A stretch of 64,000 nt of DNA from an uncultured SAR86 cluster bacterium (GCA_902594545.1 CACJMO010000001.1:85112-149111); one strand, 5' to 3'. Shown: positions 38,322 through 50,586, numbered from the stretch's first letter. A program made the numbers and translations. The notes: a model not told the origin generated them from the letters alone.

Positions 38322-40568
38322 TTATTCCTTTGAATTTTTTAAGGTAACTACTTCAACTCTATCTACCTTTCTAAATCCTTTGGGCAAGAAGTTTCCCCGT
38401 CTACCTCTATTTCCCGCAAAATTTTCTAAATCTTTAAATTTTATGGTGAAGTGCCTTTTTCCGCTAATAAGCTTTAATTCCTTTTCTTCATTTAAGGTAA
38501 CTACTTCCTGTAAAAAATCCTCTCCAGAATCAAAATTAGCCTTTGGTATCCCTATAATCTTATTACCCTTACCTCTTGCTAATTGAGGCAGTTCTGAACA
38601 TGGAAAGACAAGCATTCTACCTTGGTTTGTTATGGCAGCTAGATAGTCATTTTCACTTTCTACCAAGTACGGTTTTAGTACTTTTGCATTTTCTTGCACT
38701 CTGATTGCAGCTTTACCAGATTTATTTTTTGTCTGCAAATCAATAAGCTTCGCTATAAAACCATATCCAGAAGAAGATGCTAAAACTACCTGTTCATCAT
38801 CTTTACCGGACATGACACCCATAAAAGTTTCTCCCGATTCAGCATTTAATCTTCCGGAAAGAGGTTCTCCTTGACCACGAGCAGACGGAAGAGAATGACA
38901 AGGTAATGTATAAGCCTTGCCTTTAGAGTCTAGAAAAATAGCATTCAAATTATTTCTGGATAATGCTGAAGAAAAATACGAATCTCCTTCACGGTAATTT
39001 AAGGATTCGGCATCAACATCATGCCCTTTAGCAGCTCTAATCCATCCTCTTTCTGAAAGAACTAAAGTTACTGGATCAGAAGAAATTAATTCCGCCTCAT
39101 CGAAAGCTGTTGCCTCCTCTCTAACTACAATAGGACTGTTCCTGTCATCACCATAAATCTCTGCATCAGCTTTAAGTTCCTTCTTGATTAAAGTCTTTAG
39201 TCTTGCTTTAGAGCTAAGTAACTTTTCTAACTCTTTTCTCTCGGTGTCTAGAGTACCTTGCTCCTCTTTAATTTTGATTTCTTCCAGCTTTGCAAGTTGT
39301 CTTAATCTAATTTCCAAAATTGCATCAACCTGCACCACACTTAGTTTAAATTTCTTTTGCAGGACTTTCTTTGGCTCGTCTTCATTTCGAATAATGTTGA
39401 TAACTTCGTCAATATTCAGATAAATAACTAGGAGCCCTTCTAATATGTGTAACCTGTCTAGAACCCAATCTAATCTATGTTGCAACCTTCTAGTAACAGT
39501 TTGAGTTCTGAAAGTAAGCCACTCCTTAAGAACTGATTTTATATCTCTCGTCTGGGGCTTGCCATTGAGACCAATTAAATTCATATTTACTCGATAGTTC
39601 TTTTGAAGATCAGTCGTAGCAAACAGATGATTCATGACTGCATCTTTGTCTACTCGATTGGATTTGGGCACTAATACCAATCTTGTAGGATTTTCTTCAT
39701 CGCTCTCATCTCTTAAATCAACAATCATAGGAAGTTTCTTTGAGTCCATTTGGATAGCAATTTGTTCCAATATTTTTGAACTGGATGTTTGATGAGGTAA
39801 GGCTGTAATTATTATTTCACCACTTTCTATTTCATAAGTAGATCTCATTTTTATTGAACCTCTGCCGGACCTATAAATCTCTTTCAAGTCCTCTTCAGAA
39901 GAAATTATTTCTGCTTTTGTAGGAAAATCAGGTCCTGGCACTATTGCGTACAATTCTTCTACCGAAACTTTTGGTTCATCCAAGATCTTGATACAAGCCT
40001 TAACTACCTCATTTAGGTTATGAGGAGGTATATCGGTGGCCATTCCTACGGCAATTCCTGTTGCTCCATTAAGAAGAAGATTGGGTAATCTTGAAGGGAG
40101 AACCGAGGGCTCTAAAAGAGTCCCATCGAAATTACTGACCCAATCAACTGTTCCTTGTCCAAGCTCTTCAAGAAGGCTCTTTGCATAAGGCGATAGACGA
40201 CATTCAGTATATCTCATAGCGGCAAATGATTTAGGATCATCAATTGACCCCCAATTACCCTGTCCATCTATGAGAGGATACCTGGTTGAAAATGTTTGGG
40301 ATAAAAGAACCATTGCCTCGTATGCTGCAGTATCCCCATGAGGGTGAAATTTTCCGATCACATCGCCAACTGTTCTTGCACTCTTCTTATATTTTGCTGC
40401 AGAACTTAGGCCTAATTCCGACATTGCATAAATAATTCTTCTTTGCACAGGCTTTAATCCATCTCCAATATGAGGTAAAGCTCTGTCTAAAATTACGTAC
40501 ATGGAATAGTCAAGGTAAGCCTTTTCACTAAACTGGCTTAAAGACTGTTGTTCAAGTTTTTCAGACAT
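38322..40568 (-). CDS. parC: DNA topoisomerase IV subunit A
   Basis: DNA-cleaving subunit of topoisomerase IV, which decatenates chromosomes. At 748 residues it matches ParC rather than the longer GyrA. Marks: '[21 protein letters not shown]', '[20 protein letters not shown]', the catalytic Tyr in '[11 protein letters not shown]', and C-terminal beta-pinwheel repeats. In the quinolone-determining region the residue equivalent to E. coli Ser80 is Thr and Glu84 is kept. It overlaps the end of parE by 8 bases, so both subunits are translated from one message. Confidence 0.96.
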
Positions 40569-42447
40569 TTGCTAAGTTTCCTTTATCTTCCAACCATTCT
40601 TTTCTGTCTTGTGATCTTTTTTTGGATAAGAGCATATCAACCATCTGAGCTGATTTATCTCCATTTTTAACTGTCAGCTGCACCAATCTCCTCGCCCCAG
40701 GAAGCATCGTTGTTTCTCTAAGCTGTGATGCATTCATTTCTCCAAGGCCTTTAAAGCGCTGCACTTCTATCTTAGTTCTCTTATTCTTCTTTTGAAGCTC
40801 ACTTACAAGCTTATCCTTTTCATCATCATCTAAAGCATAATAGACATCTTTACCTTGATCGACCCGATACAAAGGAGGCATAGAGACATATACTCTTCCT
40901 GCCTCAACCAATGGCCTAAAATGTCTGAGGAATAGTGCGCACAAGAGTGTTGCAATGTGCAATCCGTCAGAATCTGCATCGGCCAAGATACAAACTTTTC
41001 CGTACCGCAATCCATCTAGATTATTACTTCCTGGTTCCACACCTAAAGCTATTGCTATGTTATTTACTTCTTGGGAAGCAAGGACTTCGCTGACATCAAC
41101 TTCCCAAGTATTCATAATCTTTCCCTTCAAGGGTAATATCGCTTGGAACTTTCTATCTCTTGCTCTTTTAGCAGACCCGCCAGCCGACTCACCTTCTACT
41201 AAAAACAACTCCCCCTCTTCAGGATCATCACAAGTACAGTCTGTTAATTTTCCAGGCAAGGCAGGGCCAGAAACAATTTTCTTTCTATCTACTTTTTTAT
41301 TATTCTTTTGTCGGGCTTGAGCATTAGCAATACAGATACCTGCAATTATCTCTCCTTCTTCGGTATGCTGATTGAGCCATAAACTGAAAGAATCTTTAAT
41401 GATCTGAGAGGAAACATTAGTAAATTCTTTTGAAGAAAGACGTTCCTTAGTTTGACCAGTAAATTGCGGATCTTTAACTTTAGCAGAGATTATAGAACTG
41501 CAATTCTGCCAAATATCATCTGCTGTAAGCTTAATACCCCTAGGTATTAAATTCCTAAAATCACAGAATTCCTTTAGAGCTTCAGTTAAACCCGTTCTAG
41601 TTCCGTTTACATGCGTTCCTCCTTGAGAGGTTGGTATGAGATTTACATAGCTCTCTGAAATAGGATCAGCAATTCCTTGAACCCATTGCAGAGCCCAAGT
41701 CAATCCACCCTCATCAGACAAAAATTCACCCTCAAAAGGATCTGAAGGAACAACCTCTCCCCCTTTGTTGGAAGAAGCCAAATAAGCTGCAAGTCCTTCA
41801 ACAAAACACCAAGATTCAGACTGGCCTGTGTTTTCGTCTTTGAAGGAAATCTTTAATCCAGGCGAAAGAACTGCTTTTGCTTTTAATGCAGATGTAAGTT
41901 GAGAAACTGAAATTTTAGGATTATCAAAATATTGAGGATCCGGGAGAAATGTAACCTTTGTTCCTGTATTCTTCTGGCCAACCTTATCAATGGCTTTTAA
42001 ATCTTTTTTCTTCTCACTATCTTCAAATCTAATTGAATACTTTTGACCATCTCTTTTTATTTCAGCTTCAAGAAAACTTGATAGGGCATTGACAACCGAT
42101 ACACCCACACCATGTAAACCTCCTGAAAATTTATAGTCTTCATTTGAAAACTTAGCTCCAGCATGGAGTCTTGTGAAAATAAGCTCAACAGCAGGCACAT
42201 CCTCCTCTGGGTGTAAATCAACTGGCATCCCTCTTCCATCATCTTCTACACCAAGAGATCCATCTTTGTGCAGAACTACATCTATCTTTGAGGCAAAGCC
42301 TCCAAGGGCTTCATCAATACTATTATCTATTACCTCTAAGGCGAGGTGATTAGGTCGGGAAGTTTCCGTATACATTCCAGGTCTTTTCTTGACCGGATCA
42401 AGTCCAGAGAGGACTTCTATAGACTTTGCGGTATATTCTCTTGCCAT
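40561..42447 (-). CDS. parE: DNA topoisomerase IV subunit B
   Basis: ATPase subunit of topoisomerase IV; 628 residues as in E. coli. The GHKL ATPase shows '[14 protein letters not shown]', '[13 protein letters not shown]' and '[19 protein letters not shown]'; the Toprim domain shows '[12 protein letters not shown]' and '[15 protein letters not shown]'; '[18 protein letters not shown]' ends the core. The C-terminus lacks the GyrB insert, supporting ParE. A TATAAT lies 13 bases before the ATG with no Shine-Dalgarno, so the leader is very short. Confidence 0.96.
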
Positions 42448-42466: not shown

Positions 42467-42576
42467 CCTGTGCTAATGTAACAAAGGGATATGAAAATAG
42501 TTTTTTGAGCGTACGTAATTTATTATTAATCACCGTTATTGGTTTTCTAACAAGTTTTAATGAAAGAGAGAATCAA

Positions 42577-43560
42577 ATGCAAATTGAAATAACCCGTTTT
42601 GTAGATGAACCTATAATCAAACCATATCATAACGAAGAAATAGGTTTTAACGTTCAGGGTCCCTCATTAATAAAAGTGCCCACTTGGGTTGAAAAGCCCT
42701 TAGGTAAATACTATCTTTACTTTGCTGACCACAAGGGCGATAGAATTAAAATGGCTTTTTCAGACAGTCTATCCGGACCATGGCAAATTCATAAAGGAGG
42801 AGTATTGAGCCTGGAAGATTCAAATTTTTTAACGGCCAAGCCAAAGGTTCCTAAAGATTTTGATCTAACTGCCCTTGAGCCAAGAGAAGTCGATGAGAGT
42901 CTGAGAAAATTTATTCCAAAAAAAATTGATGATTTAACAATTCCGCATATCGCTTCACCAGATGTTCACGTTGATGATCTAAACAATAGAGTATTAATGT
43001 ATTTTCATGGTCTTGATGAATTTGGCCTTCAAAAAACTAGAGTTGCCACTTCTTCTGATGGACTAAACTTTGTTGCAAAAGAGAAGATAGTAGGATGGCC
43101 GTATTTCAGAAAATTTTCATATAGAAATGAAGACTATGCCCTCTCAATGCCAGGTGTAATCTACAAAAGGAATGGAGATATTGAGGACTTTAAGATACTC
43201 AATCAGCTTATGGAAGAAAATACTCGCCATTCAGCTGTCATGGTAAGAAATGACTTTCTATTAGTTTTTTTTACAAGGAAAGGAGATTCACCAGAGAGAA
43301 TCCTTATGACAACTATTGATTTATCCAAACCCATTATGCTGTGGCGAACTAGCGAACCTGTTGAAGTTCTAAAACCAGAAAAAGAATGGGAAGGTGCCAA
43401 TTTACCTCTGTATAAATCAGTTGCGAGTGCGATAAATACTCCAGTTAATCAATTAAGAGATCCTGCGTTATTTATTGAAGGGGGTAAGAATTATCTTCTT
43501 TATTCAGTGAGGGGTGAAAATGGTATAGGAATTGTTGAATTTTCAATCAAGGAACCTTGA
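42577..43560 (+). CDS. predicted five-bladed beta-propeller protein, GH43-like, unknown function
   Basis: About 327 residues from ATG 42577, which follows GAGAG at a good distance. Segments such as 'KYYLYFADHKGDRIKMAFSDSLSGPW', 'HIASPDVHVDDLNNRVLMYFHG' and 'TRVATSSDGLNFVA' resemble blades of glycosidase families 43/32/68 (arabinanase, levansucrase fold). I cannot assign the acidic catalytic triad with certainty, so enzymatic activity is open. The ORF track start at 42346 lies inside parE and is wrong. An in-frame TTG further upstream would add a hydrophobic 'NLLLITVIGFLTSF', a possible signal peptide. Single-gene unit. Confidence 0.6.
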   Translation: MQIEITRFVDEPIIKPYHNEEIGFNVQGPSLIKVPTWVEKPLGKYYLYFADHKGDRIKMAFSDSLSGPWQIHKGGVLSLEDSNFLTAKPKVPKDFDLTALEPREVDESLRKFIPKKIDDLTIPHIASPDVHVDDLNNRVLMYFHGLDEFGLQKTRVATSSDGLNFVAKEKIVGWPYFRKFSYRNEDYALSMPGVIYKRNGDIEDFKILNQLMEENTRHSAVMVRNDFLLVFFTRKGDSPERILMTTIDLSKPIMLWRTSEPVEVLKPEKEWEGANLPLYKSVASAINTPVNQLRDPALFIEGGKNYLLYSVRGENGIGIVEFSIKEP

Positions 43561-43666: not shown

Positions 43667-43786
43667 GTGAAAAAAATAGAAAAAACGGCAAAAAAAGTAT
43701 CAGAAGTCATACTTCCTACGCTTTACTTGGCACCAATGTTTCTTGGTGCATATGGATTTGTGTCTTTTGTTCAGTGGGCTAGCTAA
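43667..43786 (+). CDS. 39-residue single-helix membrane protein, hypothetical
   Basis: A GTG-initiated ORF of 39 codons, too short for the ORF track. It encodes a Lys-rich N-terminus (KKIEKTAKKVSE) and one hydrophobic helix (VILPTLYLAPMFLGAYGFVSFV) ending 'QWAS'. Composition is that of a genuine small membrane protein: basic residues first, then one helix with aromatic residues at the end. Upstream there is a very AT-rich 100-base stretch with TATTATAC about 30 bases ahead as possible -10. The stop overlaps the convergent stop of the LvaB-like gene by 3 bases. No family recognised. Confidence 0.55.
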   Translation: MKKIEKTAKKVSEVILPTLYLAPMFLGAYGFVSFVQWAS

Positions 43787-44223
43787 GACTCGGCTTGCTG
43801 TAACAATCCAATCAAATCACTAACTTTACGTCTTTGATGCATTGATCTCATCAGATCGAACGCACTACCGATAACCTTCAGTTCCCCATTTTCCTCCAAG
43901 GTTGCAACCGTTCTATTAAGTAAGTTTCTCAGTAGTTGATTATTTTTGTCTAATTGATCGATTGTAGTATCTCCGGTTACATAACCCTCAGAATGAAGAT
44001 CCTTTATATTGAACTTTCCTACTCTTTCAAGCCAATCGACAACATCTTTATTTTCTTTTTCTAAAGATGAAGCAGCATCATTGAATTTCATTGCTGAAAT
44101 TAAAACTAAAGCACCCCAAGACCCTAAACGAGATCTTTCATACTCATCTTCTATCAGAGGGCTGAATCTACCAATGATTTCTTGAGCTGCATTCAGAAGA
44201 GCTATATTTATTTCTGGTTTCAC
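43783..44223 (-). CDS. small helical partner protein of APH-type kinase (LvaB / DUF6285-like)
   Basis: A 146-residue, apparently all-helical protein without signal peptide or cysteines. Its start overlaps the stop of the APH-family kinase (ATGA), so the two are made together. In levulinate-degrading Pseudomonas the 4-hydroxyacyl-CoA kinase LvaA needs a small adjacent protein LvaB; gene order, size and the helical pattern ('NAAQEIIGRFSPLIEDEYERSRLGSWGALVLIS') fit that role. The assignment rests on context more than on motifs, so treat it as tentative. Confidence 0.55.
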   Translation of the reverse strand: MKPEINIALLNAAQEIIGRFSPLIEDEYERSRLGSWGALVLISAMKFNDAASSLEKENKDVVDWLERVGKFNIKDLHSEGYVTGDTTIDQLDKNNQLLRNLLNRTVATLEENGELKVIGSAFDLMRSMHQRRKVSDLIGLLQQAES

Positions 44224-45224
44224 AGCTTAGCCTCCAAAAAGTCCAAGATAACTTCAAGGTGTATATCTCCAGGGATCCATGCAGAGAAAAGATTGATCGG
44301 ATCTATGTTTGTTCCTGTTTTAAATTCGTGTCCTGCTGAAATCCAGATTGCCATCCCTTTTACTGCAGCAAATATCTCCCACCAATCTAATTGATCTTGA
44401 TCAATTTGTATTTTGCTCGATTCTTCCCAGATTGTGAGAGCTTCTTCACGACTTATTAAATAAGCAGGCCTCTGCTTATCTTGCCAACTCCATATTGGGG
44501 ATAGTGCCCAAGCAAGATCTTCTAATGGATTTCCAATATGAGCCATCTCCCAATCCAATATTCCTGTTACTTTATTTTCTAGGTATAGGAAATTACCACT
44601 TCTATAATCTCCATGAACCAGGCATTGATGGTCATTTTCTTCAGGTGGATTTCTATACAAATATCTTATCCCTGCTTCTAAAATGGGCTCAATGCTAATT
44701 GAGTCATCACGAATAACCTTAACCCATTTATCTAACTCTTGTTTCCAATGGGGATCTTTAGATTCTGAAGAAAGGGATTCAAAAATCTTCTTATCTATTT
44801 GAGCGCTGGCAATTTGACCAAGAATATACCAAAACTGTTTACCTAGATCCTTTTCGTGGGGATGATAAACATCTGGAGTAAATGGACTGGCTGCTTCTCC
44901 TTTTAATTCCTTCATGAGCATAAAAGGTTTACCAAGTCGCTCCGAGGATTCATCCATATCTATCAGCTCTGGTACAGGAACTTGAGAGTTTTGAAATGCA
45001 GAATAAGCTAGGTATTCGGTCTTTTGTTCGGTTTCTATCAAAGAACTGTCCTGGGAAAGTCTTAGAACCAATTTTTCAATATTTCCTGAATCATCACTTA
45101 ACTTTATTTTATATGTCTCTCTGCTTGCTCCGCCAAATACTCTGTCTACAGTATCAACGGAGTAATTTTTGTTTGATAAGCTGCAGTAATAATCTTGAAA
45201 AAGAGATGCTAAGTTTTCAGACAT
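44220..45224 (-). CDS. APH-family phosphotransferase, LvaA / ACAD10-11 kinase-domain type
   Basis: A 334-residue kinase of the aminoglycoside phosphotransferase fold. The Brenner catalytic motif 'HGDYRSGNFLYLE' (~200) and the metal-binding 'ILDWEMAHIGNPLEDLAW' (~220) are intact, and N-terminal 'GGASRETYKIKL' and 'KTEYLAYSAF' fit the nucleotide lobe. The 'YRSGN' and 'GNPLEDLAW' wording is that of the hydroxyacyl-CoA kinases (LvaA, N-terminal domain of ACAD10/11), not of antibiotic kinases. It likely phosphorylates a hydroxyl of a hydroxyacyl-CoA. It is the fourth gene of a tight minus-strand operon behind P450 and the lipocalin-like protein. Confidence 0.82.
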   Translation of the reverse strand: MSENLASLFQDYYCSLSNKNYSVDTVDRVFGGASRETYKIKLSDDSGNIEKLVLRLSQDSSLIETEQKTEYLAYSAFQNSQVPVPELIDMDESSERLGKPFMLMKELKGEAASPFTPDVYHPHEKDLGKQFWYILGQIASAQIDKKIFESLSSESKDPHWKQELDKWVKVIRDDSISIEPILEAGIRYLYRNPPEENDHQCLVHGDYRSGNFLYLENKVTGILDWEMAHIGNPLEDLAWALSPIWSWQDKQRPAYLISREEALTIWEESSKIQIDQDQLDWWEIFAAVKGMAIWISAGHEFKTGTNIDPINLFSAWIPGDIHLEVILDFLEAKL

Positions 45225-45227
45225 AAT

Positions 45228-46316
45228 TTAAACATCCAAAAGACTAGTAAATCCACTCGGGGAATGCGGTCCGAAAATTAACTGCTCCAAAACTCCTATA
45301 CCTTGTTGCGTGGAATCACCTTCCTGAATATTGAAATCACAGATAGCTTGAATATGAAGAAAAGGAGGATCATGCGGATCCTCCTTAAGATCATAAGTGT
45401 CATATTGAGATTGGTTTTCCCCTCTAAACTGGCCGTGACCCCATTCAGGATGCATGTAACCTAATCCACACATATAGATGTGGTATTTAGGAATTAATGA
45501 CCAACTTAATTTTGTGCCATCAGTTTTAAAAGCAGAAAATTCAGCTTTTGAAATTCTTCTTGAATTATTTTTATACTCGATCATCTTAGTTAGACTATCT
45601 AATTTGATACTTCCTTCTTTTCCTTGTTTTACGCAGTGACTGTGAGTTGCTCTACCTTCTTCATTATCTACAAAATAAAGATGAGATGAAAAATCATTAA
45701 AATTGGCAGGAGCCCATAACCAATAAAATTGGGGCAGCTTATCAGAGGGCATCATTTGGGTATCTGCTGCACCAACAGGTCTTATACCCCAAGATCTATC
45801 TCGCGTGCCGAGAAAATTACCATCGGAAAGATTAAAAAATTTATCTTTAAACTTGATATGTCCATCCCAATTGCCGTGTTGTGTCATACGAGTAGAGTCC
45901 ATAGTAACCCTAGGACCATTCTTCAAAGTCATCCTAGGTTCTTCCATAGGTTCAAATCGACCTGTGAAAACAATGTCGACATCTATTTCCTTTTCTGGAT
46001 CATTTAAGTTGATGTTGAGTTCTTTCAGGGGTTGAACAATCTCGATCTTAAAGGAGCCAACAGTTGTTTCCATTCTCTCCTGATGAAGAAGGTCTGAGTA
46101 ACGAAAGTTATGTTGTATACCTTCGTAAACAAGTACAAAACTTGCATCTTTAATATTCAAATTGGGGTAAACACAAAAGGCTGCACCAAAAAAGATGCTC
46201 GCATCCTCGTTATACCCATTGAAAAAATATCGGTCGTAAAAATTTCTTTCAGTTCCTACTTCTGCTACCGGAGTAGGAAGTTGATGGATTGGAAAATCGT
46301 CGCCTTTAGAAATCAT
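45228..46316 (-). CDS. hypothetical lipocalin/CrtC-AttH-like protein in P450 operon
   Basis: A 362-residue soluble protein with no signal peptide. The pattern of beta strands, 'FLGTRDRSWGIRPVG' and 'WLWAPANFNDFSSHLYFVDNEEGRATHSH' recalls the two-lipocalin fold of hydroxyneurosporene synthase/AttH and related uncharacterised families found beside P450s and APH kinases in actinobacteria; I cannot name the family with certainty. CrtC-type members hydrate isoprenoid double bonds, which would create a hydroxyl group. It starts directly after the P450 stop codon (TAA-ATG) and precedes the kinase by 3 bases, so it is surely part of the same pathway. Confidence 0.6.
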   Translation of the reverse strand: MISKGDDFPIHQLPTPVAEVGTERNFYDRYFFNGYNEDASIFFGAAFCVYPNLNIKDASFVLVYEGIQHNFRYSDLLHQERMETTVGSFKIEIVQPLKELNINLNDPEKEIDVDIVFTGRFEPMEEPRMTLKNGPRVTMDSTRMTQHGNWDGHIKFKDKFFNLSDGNFLGTRDRSWGIRPVGAADTQMMPSDKLPQFYWLWAPANFNDFSSHLYFVDNEEGRATHSHCVKQGKEGSIKLDSLTKMIEYKNNSRRISKAEFSAFKTDGTKLSWSLIPKYHIYMCGLGYMHPEWGHGQFRGENQSQYDTYDLKEDPHDPPFLHIQAICDFNIQEGDSTQQGIGVLEQLIFGPHSPSGFTSLLDV

Positions 46317-47555
46317 TTATAAGCGGACCTTTAATTCAGATATTCCAGCTAAGAAATTGGAAGGGATTCTGACAGGTTCGGCAACTGAGTGAATATTTGG
46401 AAAACGCTCTAATAGTTCCTCGAATAGGATTCTAATTTGCATATGCCCCAACCTATTACCAAGACATAGATGTTCTCCAGCTCCAAAAGCTAAATGTTTT
46501 TTAGCATTTTCTCGGTCCACTCTGAATAAATGTCCTTCAGAAAAAATATCTTCATCTCTGTTTGCGGAACCGTACCACATGATTACCTTATCCCCTGCTT
46601 TAATGTCTTGACCTCTAATATTTGTATCTCGTGTAGCTGTTCTTCTGAAGTAAATAACTGAAGTTACCCATCTCAACATTTCGTCAGTAGCATTGGCAAT
46701 CAAAGATGGATCTTTTAGAAGCTTTTCCCTCTCTTCAGGATTCTCTGTCAAAGCCATCAAGCCACCTGTTAAGGTATTTCGAGTGGTTTCATTGCCGGCT
46801 ATAACCATCAGAAGAAAGAAGCCATCCAGTAGCTCTGGAGGAAGCTCCCCTCCTTCAATCTTTGTATTGGCAACAACACTCATCAAGTCATCCGTAGGAT
46901 TTTTTCTTCGCTCTTCTATCATGTCTCTACCCATCTTGAATAGCTCCATGTAATTAACCCAAATCTGAAAAGAATTATTAGGATCTTGTTGAATAGAAGC
47001 ATCAGTAAGATTATTAACTAAATCTCTTATTTTAGGCCTATCAGATTCAGGTATACCCATCATTTCACATAGCACCCACAAAGGTAATTGCTCAGAAATC
47101 TCAGTAACAAAATTGAATTCTCCTTTATCTTCTACATTCTCAAGAAGCTCTCGTATCTTAAGCCTCATATCATTCTCAAGGCTTCTTATTGCTTTTGGAG
47201 TAAAACTAGGCGCAACCATCTTTCTGTAGATTTGATGATCTGGAGGATCCATGCCTATCATGTTGCCTACTATGGCAGCAACTGCTGCAGGATCTACTAC
47301 TTCCGGATCTCCCATAGACATTAAGTGACCTCCAACAGCTGACGAAAAAGTCATAGGGTCTTTAGAAACCTTGATTATGTCTTCGTGCTTAGTTAGGGCC
47401 CAAAAACCAGGTTCAAAATCTAGACTCTCTTCGTGCCAATATACTGGTGCTTCTTTTCTTAAACGCTCGAATAACTCAAACGGTTGTCCATCAATAAACG
47501 TCTCCCACTTATCTAACTCGCAGATTTGGCCGATGTCATAAATGGGTTTCGTCAT
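46317..47555 (-). CDS. cytochrome P450
   Basis: Soluble bacterial class I P450, 412 residues. The I-helix oxygen-activation motif 'VIAGNETTRNTLTGG' (~250) and haem-binding 'HLAFGAGEHLCLGNRLGHMQ' with the ligand Cys (~364) are intact; 'MIGMDPPDHQIYRKMVAPSFTPKAI' is also typical. The wording resembles the CYP125/CYP142/CYP107-like group that hydroxylates steroids, terpenoids or fatty acids. No ferredoxin gene is adjacent, so reducing partners are elsewhere. It begins 3 bases after the peroxiredoxin gene and is followed without gap by the lipocalin-like gene. Confidence 0.95.
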   Translation of the reverse strand: MTKPIYDIGQICELDKWETFIDGQPFELFERLRKEAPVYWHEESLDFEPGFWALTKHEDIIKVSKDPMTFSSAVGGHLMSMGDPEVVDPAAVAAIVGNMIGMDPPDHQIYRKMVAPSFTPKAIRSLENDMRLKIRELLENVEDKGEFNFVTEISEQLPLWVLCEMMGIPESDRPKIRDLVNNLTDASIQQDPNNSFQIWVNYMELFKMGRDMIEERRKNPTDDLMSVVANTKIEGGELPPELLDGFFLLMVIAGNETTRNTLTGGLMALTENPEEREKLLKDPSLIANATDEMLRWVTSVIYFRRTATRDTNIRGQDIKAGDKVIMWYGSANRDEDIFSEGHLFRVDRENAKKHLAFGAGEHLCLGNRLGHMQIRILFEELLERFPNIHSVAEPVRIPSNFLAGISELKVRL

Positions 47556-47558
47556 TTT

Positions 47559-48041
47559 TTACAATTGCTGAAGTATTGTCTCGGCCGAACTTACATCTAG
47601 GCCTGGTCCTTGCTCAACATTCAAAGAAGAAACAACTCCATCATCTATAATCATTGCATATCTCTGAGATCTTGTACCTAAACCAAAGCCACTTCCATCC
47701 ATTTCTAATCCAATTGCTGCTGTGAATTCTCCATTTCCATCAGAAAGCATTAGAACGTCTTGTCCTACATTCCTATCTTCACCCCATGCTTTCATAACAA
47801 ATGGATCATTTACTGATACACAAGCCACTATATCGACACCCTTTTCTTTTATTTCTGCATTTTTTTCTATGAAGCCTGGCAGATGCTGAGCACTGCAAGT
47901 TGGAGTAAAAGCTCCAGGAACTGCGAAAAGTACTACTTTCTTTCCAGCGGAAATTTCATTTAAAGATACGGGCTTTGGACCTTCCTCAGTCATAGTAGTT
48001 AAATTAACTGAAGGTAAAGTGTCACCAACTTGAATAGTCAT
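47559..48041 (-). CDS. peroxiredoxin, Prx5-type
   Basis: Thiol peroxidase of the AhpC/TSA superfamily, Prx5 group, 160 residues. The peroxidatic Cys lies in 'AVPGAFTPTCSAQHLPGF', and 'VSVNDPFVMKAWG' and 'LMLSDGNGEFTAAIGLEMD' are Prx5 marks. The start is ATG 48041 with a strong TAGGAGAAAAA site; the ORF track start at 48101 would run into the divergent tolC promoter. It is the first gene of a minus-strand operon containing P450, so it may detoxify peroxide leaked by the oxygenase, though this is inference. Confidence 0.93.
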   Translation of the reverse strand: MTIQVGDTLPSVNLTTMTEEGPKPVSLNEISAGKKVVLFAVPGAFTPTCSAQHLPGFIEKNAEIKEKGVDIVACVSVNDPFVMKAWGEDRNVGQDVLMLSDGNGEFTAAIGLEMDGSGFGLGTRSQRYAMIIDDGVVSSLNVEQGPGLDVSSAETILQQL

Positions 48042-49485: not shown

Positions 49486-50586
49486 ATGAGGTTGATTACA
49501 AGAACTCTTTTTCTGTTATCAATACTCTCCTTAAGTTTATTTATTAAATCTTTTGAGATCAGAGAGGGTGTCTTGAGAACACCTGAAGATAGATTTCAAA
49601 ATCTTGAAGGATATTCTTTCGAAGCTAACTATATGATGATCGATGGTCTGAGGATTCATTACCTTGACGAAGGACCCAAAGATGCAGAGCCAATAGTGCT
49701 TTTCCATGGAGAACCCACTTGGAGTTATTTATTCAGAAAAATGATTCCTGTTTTCAAAGAAGCTGGATACAGAGTAGTTGTACCCGATATGGTTGGATTC
49801 GGAAAGTCTGACAAATTCGAATCTAAATATGATTATAGTTACGAACATCATATAGAGGTTATGAAAGAACTGGTTGAAAGGCTTGATCTTAAAAATGCAA
49901 CTCACTTCGGTCAGGATTGGGGAGGCTTAGTCGGTCTAAGGGTTGTTGCCGAGATGCCTGATAGATTTCAACAAATTATTGTTTCAAATACAGGCATGGT
50001 TGCTGGGAAAGGAGCTGCAGCCTGGATAACAAGACGCATGGTGGAACTGGCCGTTTGGTGGAATGGGCCAATTACTTTTGAAGAGCTCAAGACAGCCGCT
50101 AAAGATGCGCTCAATTCCGAAAACTCTTCTACTAGTGATGGTGTTTCAATGTTCACTAAGTGGATAGCCCACTCCTATTATTCAGAAGACATGGACATTG
50201 TAGGTATTATTGAAACTTTTGGCAGACTAGAGCTTTCGGATGGAGAAAAAAGAGCTTATGAGGCGCCTTACCCAAGTGGAAAATATAAGGCTGGAGCTCA
50301 TGTCTGGCCCTATCTAATTCCTACTCAACTGAAGGAAAATGAGAAGTACTGGCAAGAAGTCTATGAAAAATGGGATAAACCTTTTCTTGTTGCTTTTGGC
50401 GGAGAAGAAAGAATTACAATAAGAATGAAAGATGACTTTGTAAACCGGATCCCTAATCCAACAATCATAACTCTGGGTGGGGCTGGGCATTTTGTCCAAG
50501 AGGAAGTTGGACCGGAATTGGCGCAAATCATTATTGATTTTATAGAAGGTAAAGAAGTAAACGACTTATTGGCTTCACAAAATTAG
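49486..50586 (+). CDS. haloalkane dehalogenase-like alpha/beta hydrolase, probably exported
   Basis: A 366-residue hydrolase closely resembling HLD-I enzymes such as DhlA. 'LFHGEPTWSYLFRKMIPVF' (oxyanion Glu-Pro-Thr-Trp), nucleophile Asp with halide-binding Trp in 'HFGQDWGGLVGL', and catalytic His in 'LGGAGHFVQEE' are visible. These enzymes hydrolyse carbon-halogen bonds. Unlike known HLDs it starts with a signal-peptide-like stretch (RTLFLLSILSLSLFIKSF), suggesting periplasmic location. It is probably co-transcribed with tolC. An epoxide hydrolase or serine-hydrolase-like activity cannot be excluded. Confidence 0.85.
   Translation: MRLITRTLFLLSILSLSLFIKSFEIREGVLRTPEDRFQNLEGYSFEANYMMIDGLRIHYLDEGPKDAEPIVLFHGEPTWSYLFRKMIPVFKEAGYRVVVPDMVGFGKSDKFESKYDYSYEHHIEVMKELVERLDLKNATHFGQDWGGLVGLRVVAEMPDRFQQIIVSNTGMVAGKGAAAWITRRMVELAVWWNGPITFEELKTAAKDALNSENSSTSDGVSMFTKWIAHSYYSEDMDIVGIIETFGRLELSDGEKRAYEAPYPSGKYKAGAHVWPYLIPTQLKENEKYWQEVYEKWDKPFLVAFGGEERITIRMKDDFVNRIPNPTIITLGGAGHFVQEEVGPELAQIIIDFIEGKEVNDLLASQN

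Follow-up and report, generated by a model that had tools for sequence, protein, structure and literature searches.

The window analysed here, a stretch of 64,000 nucleotides from an uncultured SAR86 cluster bacterium (GCA_902594545.1 CACJMO010000001.1:85112-149111), carries a compact five-gene operon on its minus strand. The first gene (47559..48041), preceded by an AGGAG-like ribosome site, encodes a Prx5-type peroxiredoxin of 160 amino acids with the motif PGAFTPTC (Pfam Redoxin, E 2.9e-41). It is followed by genes for a 412-residue cytochrome P450 resembling CYP125, CYP124, CYP126 and CYP153 (46317..47555; Pfam p450, E 4e-28), a 362-residue protein of the 25-phosphosteroid lyase (25-PSL) type (45228..46316), a 334-residue small-molecule kinase of the APH fold (44220..45224; Pfam APH, E 5e-33) and a small all-helical protein of 146 residues with a GTG start (43783..44223), a presumed kinase partner whose family adjoins or is fused with the kinase. 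All five open reading frames (ORFs) are open at these coordinates, and an earlier note on this DNA was right in describing five co-directional genes separated by 3, 0 and 3 bases and, at one junction, overlapping by 4. A promoter scan at the operon gave none above chance, and the terminator-like sites found by a terminator scan on the operon strand lie within genes or upstream of the operon.

A survey of gene neighbourhoods, which the earlier note had proposed as a check, found the order peroxiredoxin, P450, 362-residue protein, kinase and small protein unchanged in all 20 neighbourhoods that we read, which come from six genera of the SAR86 family to which the window belongs, with the peroxiredoxin directly 5' of the P450 every time. 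A seventh genus is represented by a contig edge, on which just the end of the kinase and the small protein are visible. Conservation is highest for the P450 (71–94% amino acid identity to the window) and lowest for the small protein (32–69%), the lowest values for the peroxiredoxin, lyase and kinase being 76%, 52% and 54%, respectively. Synonymous change has come close to saturation or passed it; where it could be computed on unsaturated sites, the ratio of nonsynonymous to synonymous substitution rates was 0.05–0.16. The conservation of the operon is well beyond chance.

The identity of the third gene is central to what the operon may do. Its 362-residue product matches the NCBIfam model of the Rv3169 family, NF053593, with 343.7 bits, the cut-off being 150 (residues 3–347, E 1e-102), and its sole solved relatives in the PDB are the 25-phosphosteroid lyases (9fzn, 9g2i and 9g4c; E 7e-43), with 9fzn aligned over residues 2–312 at E 6.8e-43. 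The blocks RNFYDRY, YPNL, EPR and RDRSWGxRPVG are common to the SAR86 protein and the solved 25-PSL. The protein is thus a member of the Rv3169 family and a relative of the 25-phosphosteroid lyases, and is predicted to eliminate phosphate. A Pfam search up to E 0.1 gave no family for it, and hence neither lipocalin nor CrtC; a relative (L080) matches only DUF7065, below the cut-off. The lipocalin or CrtC-like protein installing a hydroxyl, which had been proposed for this gene, is not supported, as there is no Pfam match and the relatives eliminate phosphate.

Lyase homologues are common, with at least 584 confirmed relatives in species-representative genomes, and are present in about half of the SAR86-order genomes (100/203). 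For comparison outside SAR86 we read 64 lyase loci. In 40 of these the gene immediately downstream of the lyase encodes a kinase, 24 include a member of the small-protein family, and three have a P450 somewhere in the locus, always on the opposite strand; none contains a peroxiredoxin. Kinase and lyase co-occur across the Proteobacteria. Within SAR86, the loci that we read from other families have the lyase with a kinase, in the absence of P450 and small protein (L201–L203), or, in three genera, a lyase homologue at the 35–37% level that lies next to leuS, unaccompanied by a kinase (L204–L207). The three loci that we read around P450s of 40–45% identity elsewhere contained no lyase or kinase.

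This pairing has a precedent in Sterolibacterium denitrificans, where 25-HSK, a kinase, attaches phosphate to the tertiary hydroxyl at C25 of sterols and the subsequent loss of this phosphate, catalysed by a lyase, leaves a delta-24 alkene (PMC8449060, PMC11061730). The lyase is still called putative in PMC11061730, and both papers seem to predate the 25-PSL structures deposited in the PDB. 25-HSK was reported as a monomer that is active alone, with no lyase candidate near its gene (PMC8449060). The SAR86 system resembles this one in its lyase homologue, in its APH-fold kinase and in the phosphorylation followed by elimination that would be expected of it. It differs in that its kinase belongs to another APH subfamily and has a small partner, whereas 25-HSK acts singly; in that its genes stand in one operon; and in that a P450 takes the place of the molybdenum hydroxylases of S. 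denitrificans.

The kinase carries the signatures HGDYRSGN and LDWE. A maximum-likelihood tree of 94 rows, from which LvaA itself is absent, places it within a clade of 33 lyase-linked kinases (support 99/98), and the kinases found beside DUF6285 proteins form a separate clade (99/99). The earlier assignment as an LvaA-type acyl-CoA kinase, taken narrowly, is not borne out by this grouping. Structure 9fsg, which from its name and size we take to be 25-HSK, is matched at E 3.6e-8 over 43 residues, and Rv3168 (3ats) at E 2e-7; the PDB matches also include 3dxp and the kinase domain of ACAD11. By contrast, the kinase of a tandem from another SAR86 family (L126) matches 9fsg at E 1.6e-35 and 3ats at E 5e-30, from which it follows that the window's family joins the same kind of lyase to a different kinase subfamily. 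The same difference separates the operon from the Rv3168/Rv3169 pair of Mycobacterium tuberculosis: the SAR86 lyase is in the Rv3169 family and likewise has an APH-like kinase as neighbour, whereas Rv3168 is near the kinase of the other SAR86 families and far from that of the window. The mycobacterial pair is not known to include a P450 or a peroxiredoxin.

The small protein had been called LvaB-like. It has no match in Pfam or NCBIfam, and a direct hidden Markov model (HMM) search for DUF6285 (Pfam) found none in it or in eight relatives; the window's own genome has no DUF6285 match either. Its AlphaFold model consists entirely of helices, with a predicted local distance difference test score (pLDDT) of 80.6, and a fold search of this model against the PDB returned nothing below E 0.1. 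An iterative HMM search seeded by the SAR86 small proteins gathered 55 ORFs from Gamma-, Alpha- and deltaproteobacterial groups, beside or fused with a lyase-linked kinase, and in three Sphingomonas (L163, L180 and L184) the small protein is fused to the C-terminus of the kinase. In the AlphaFold model of a Sphingomonas fusion the kinase part is confident and the small domain lies mostly below pLDDT 55, so that we make no claim about an interface. Compared profile to profile, 19 sequences from SAR86 showed no relation to DUF6285, whereas the extended profile of 48 sequences aligned with it over 100 columns (hhalign; probability 79%, P 1.6e-5), above all the controls (40 column or heptad shuffles, P ≥0.13; reversed profile, 0.26). 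The small proteins thus appear to be an undescribed helical family, presumed kinase partners, with a probable remote relation to DUF6285 rather than membership of it. That LvaB itself is a DUF6285 protein is a statement of the earlier note. In one neighbourhood of the family (L048, genome G030) the ORF of the small protein is shortened, with 96 of 146 residues matched and the other four genes intact, which may reflect decay or a fault in the assembly. A second kinase type followed by a 179-residue protein with no Pfam family over the cut-off was seen at L079 8829-10695 (+) and is perhaps another kinase–partner pair. Relatives in the same family also encode, at a separate locus, a true DUF6285 protein with an APH kinase next to it (L096–L099), a possible LvaA/LvaB-like pair in SAR86.

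The P450 carries the signatures FGAGEHLCLG, AGNETT and EMLRW, and its heme, I-helix and ExxR motifs are intact. Among solved structures it best matches a reconstructed CYP125 ancestor (CYP125MRCA; E 2e-101, 165 of 390 residues identical, 42%), CYP126, CYP153 and CYP124. In the PDB search it keeps company with oxidases of branched lipids and of sterol side chains (CYP125, CYP124, CYP142 and CYP153). It belongs to the same broad group as these side-chain P450s, but its scores with natural CYP125 chains fall below those with CYP126 and CYP124; unlike the side-chain P450s, it shares an operon with a kinase and a lyase. Because the third gene encodes a relative of 25-PSL and Rv3169 and the nearest solved relatives of the P450 include CYP125, CYP126, CYP153 and CYP124, an isoprenoid substrate fits; a sterol or another isoprenoid is our best guess, within the wider choice of a lipid, terpenoid or acid made before.

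Taking these results together, we propose that the five genes specify a dehydration driven by ATP, like the one that anaerobes use in breaking down sterols but in an oxygen-dependent form, and give this reading a probability of about 50%. In the order of steps that we infer, the P450 would act first, hydroxylating a branched (tertiary) carbon of an isoprenoid chain taken up from algae, be it the side chain of a sterol or some comparable terpenoid. That hydroxyl would then receive a phosphate from ATP through the APH-fold kinase, of which the small helical protein would be a subunit, and the lyase would eliminate the phosphate to give an alkene open to further oxidation, while the peroxiredoxin may remove peroxide leaked by the P450. 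The proposal is supported by the identity of the lyase, the frequency of a downstream kinase outside SAR86 and the precedent of 25-HSK, as well as by the company of the P450, the invariant gene order, the Sphingomonas fusions and the kinase–lyase tandems of other SAR86 families. The outline of hydroxylation, phosphorylation and elimination sketched in the earlier note is supported by the lyase identity, and its logic is probably right.

Several points weigh against this proposal. CYP125, CYP124 and CYP153 mostly hydroxylate terminal, not tertiary, carbons. The linkage of P450 and lyase is limited to the window's SAR86 family, the match of the window kinase to 9fsg is weak (E 4e-8), and the activities of the SAR86 enzymes are deduced from their relatives. 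In addition, KshA, which we used as the marker for aerobic steroid-ring degradation, was present in two of the 12 family genomes first tested (G020 and G024) and absent from the other ten, one of them 95% complete, and from two further family genomes. Since KshA is absent from most of the family genomes tested, full steroid-ring breakdown is not coupled to the operon. Among other SAR86 families, none of eight genomes with the ∼52% type of lyase has KshA; it is present in six genomes with the 35–37% type, and the genomes tested from the genera with a lone lyase beside leuS have three KshA-like genes each. Steroid catabolism has been predicted earlier in three SAR86 genomes (PMC4810484). No squalene–hopene cyclase reached the cut-off, so that a home-made triterpenoid is an unlikely substrate.

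The preference of the closest P450 relatives for terminal carbons suggests a different order of events, in which kinase, partner and lyase would dehydrate a tertiary alcohol from the environment (a terpenoid or sterol) and the P450 would afterwards oxidise a methyl group, allylic or terminal, in place of the molybdenum S26DH step. Kinase–lyase tandems with no linked P450, in Alphaproteobacteria as well as in other SAR86 families, are in keeping with this, but the steps cannot be ranked from gene order alone and no source of tertiary alcohol is known for SAR86; we consider this order somewhat unlikely. The retention of the operon in streamlined genomes that lack KshA could instead mean that it is not catabolic, and that the lyase homologue and the kinase act on a terpenoid or lipid other than a steroid, either in a biosynthetic pathway or in detoxification. 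The multiple copies of Rv3169-family proteins per genome in some Gammaproteobacteria also suggest varied substrates. However, the only biochemically named relatives are the 25-phosphosteroid lyases, and there are no biosynthetic neighbours and no cyclase above the cut-off, which leaves such a role doubtful.

A pathway of the LvaA/LvaB type, in which kinase and partner would phosphorylate 4-hydroxyacyl-CoAs for entry into β-oxidation, appears quite improbable. The APH-fold kinase with a small partner and the proposed logic of phosphorylation before elimination are shared with the levulinate operon and with ACAD10/11, the small protein has a probable remote DUF6285-like profile, and the kinase has ACAD11 and 3dxp among its matches. 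LvaB is reported to be a 12-kDa protein that binds LvaA, and both are needed (PMC6692424). Yet the SAR86 operon has no acyl-CoA dehydrogenase, ligase or reductase, elimination being assigned to the lyase; its kinase lies outside the clade of DUF6285-linked kinases; and relatives in the same family have their separate DUF6285–kinase locus. The APH fold, together with the low scores that the kinase reaches against models of aminoglycoside and macrolide phosphotransferases, might also suggest an antibiotic-inactivating enzyme of drug resistance, but these scores are far below the curated cut-offs and the operon with its lyase is fixed family-wide, so that we give this almost no credence.

The oxygen-dependent dehydration that we favour is largely known chemistry, in that other bacteria convert a hydroxyl of the cholesterol side chain to a double bond. 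The earlier note, which knew of no described system with this gene set, is not supported on this point, because 25-HSK and 25-PSL are described (PMC8449060, PMC11061730, PDB 9fzn) and because kinase–lyase tandems with an Rv3168-like kinase occur in other SAR86 families. What is new is the presence of a P450 and a peroxiredoxin in the SAR86 kinase–lyase operon, an arrangement not seen in the 64 lyase loci elsewhere, and the use of a kinase subfamily other than that of 25-HSK with a nameless helical partner family; this gene set and its small helper protein are undescribed. More tentatively, we suggest that SAR86 carries out an O2-dependent desaturation of isoprenoid side chains by P450, two-component kinase and lyase, and that the small proteins are undescribed subunits, distant kin of DUF6285, of tertiary-alcohol kinases across the Proteobacteria. 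SAR86 are among the most abundant uncultured bacteria of the surface ocean, with streamlined genomes, and one family of them ties the lyase to a P450. If the proposal is true, phosphorylation and elimination would no longer be confined to anaerobic life and would give marine bacteria a common way into algal sterols or terpenoids, and the nameless small-protein family would gain a testable role as a kinase subunit.

Some features of the surroundings may also be recorded. A 329-residue protein (42571-43560, +) converges on the 3' end of the operon; it is conserved in many neighbourhoods of the family, is absent from several genera and matches glycosyl hydrolase family 43 at sub-threshold level only. 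Beyond it, two type II topoisomerase subunits, probably ParE and ParC, form a constant 3' flank (40561-42447 and 38322-40568, both −). On the other side, an alpha/beta hydrolase beside TolC (49486-50586, +) is conserved at 69–85% in some neighbourhoods and replaced by a 26–29% relative in others.

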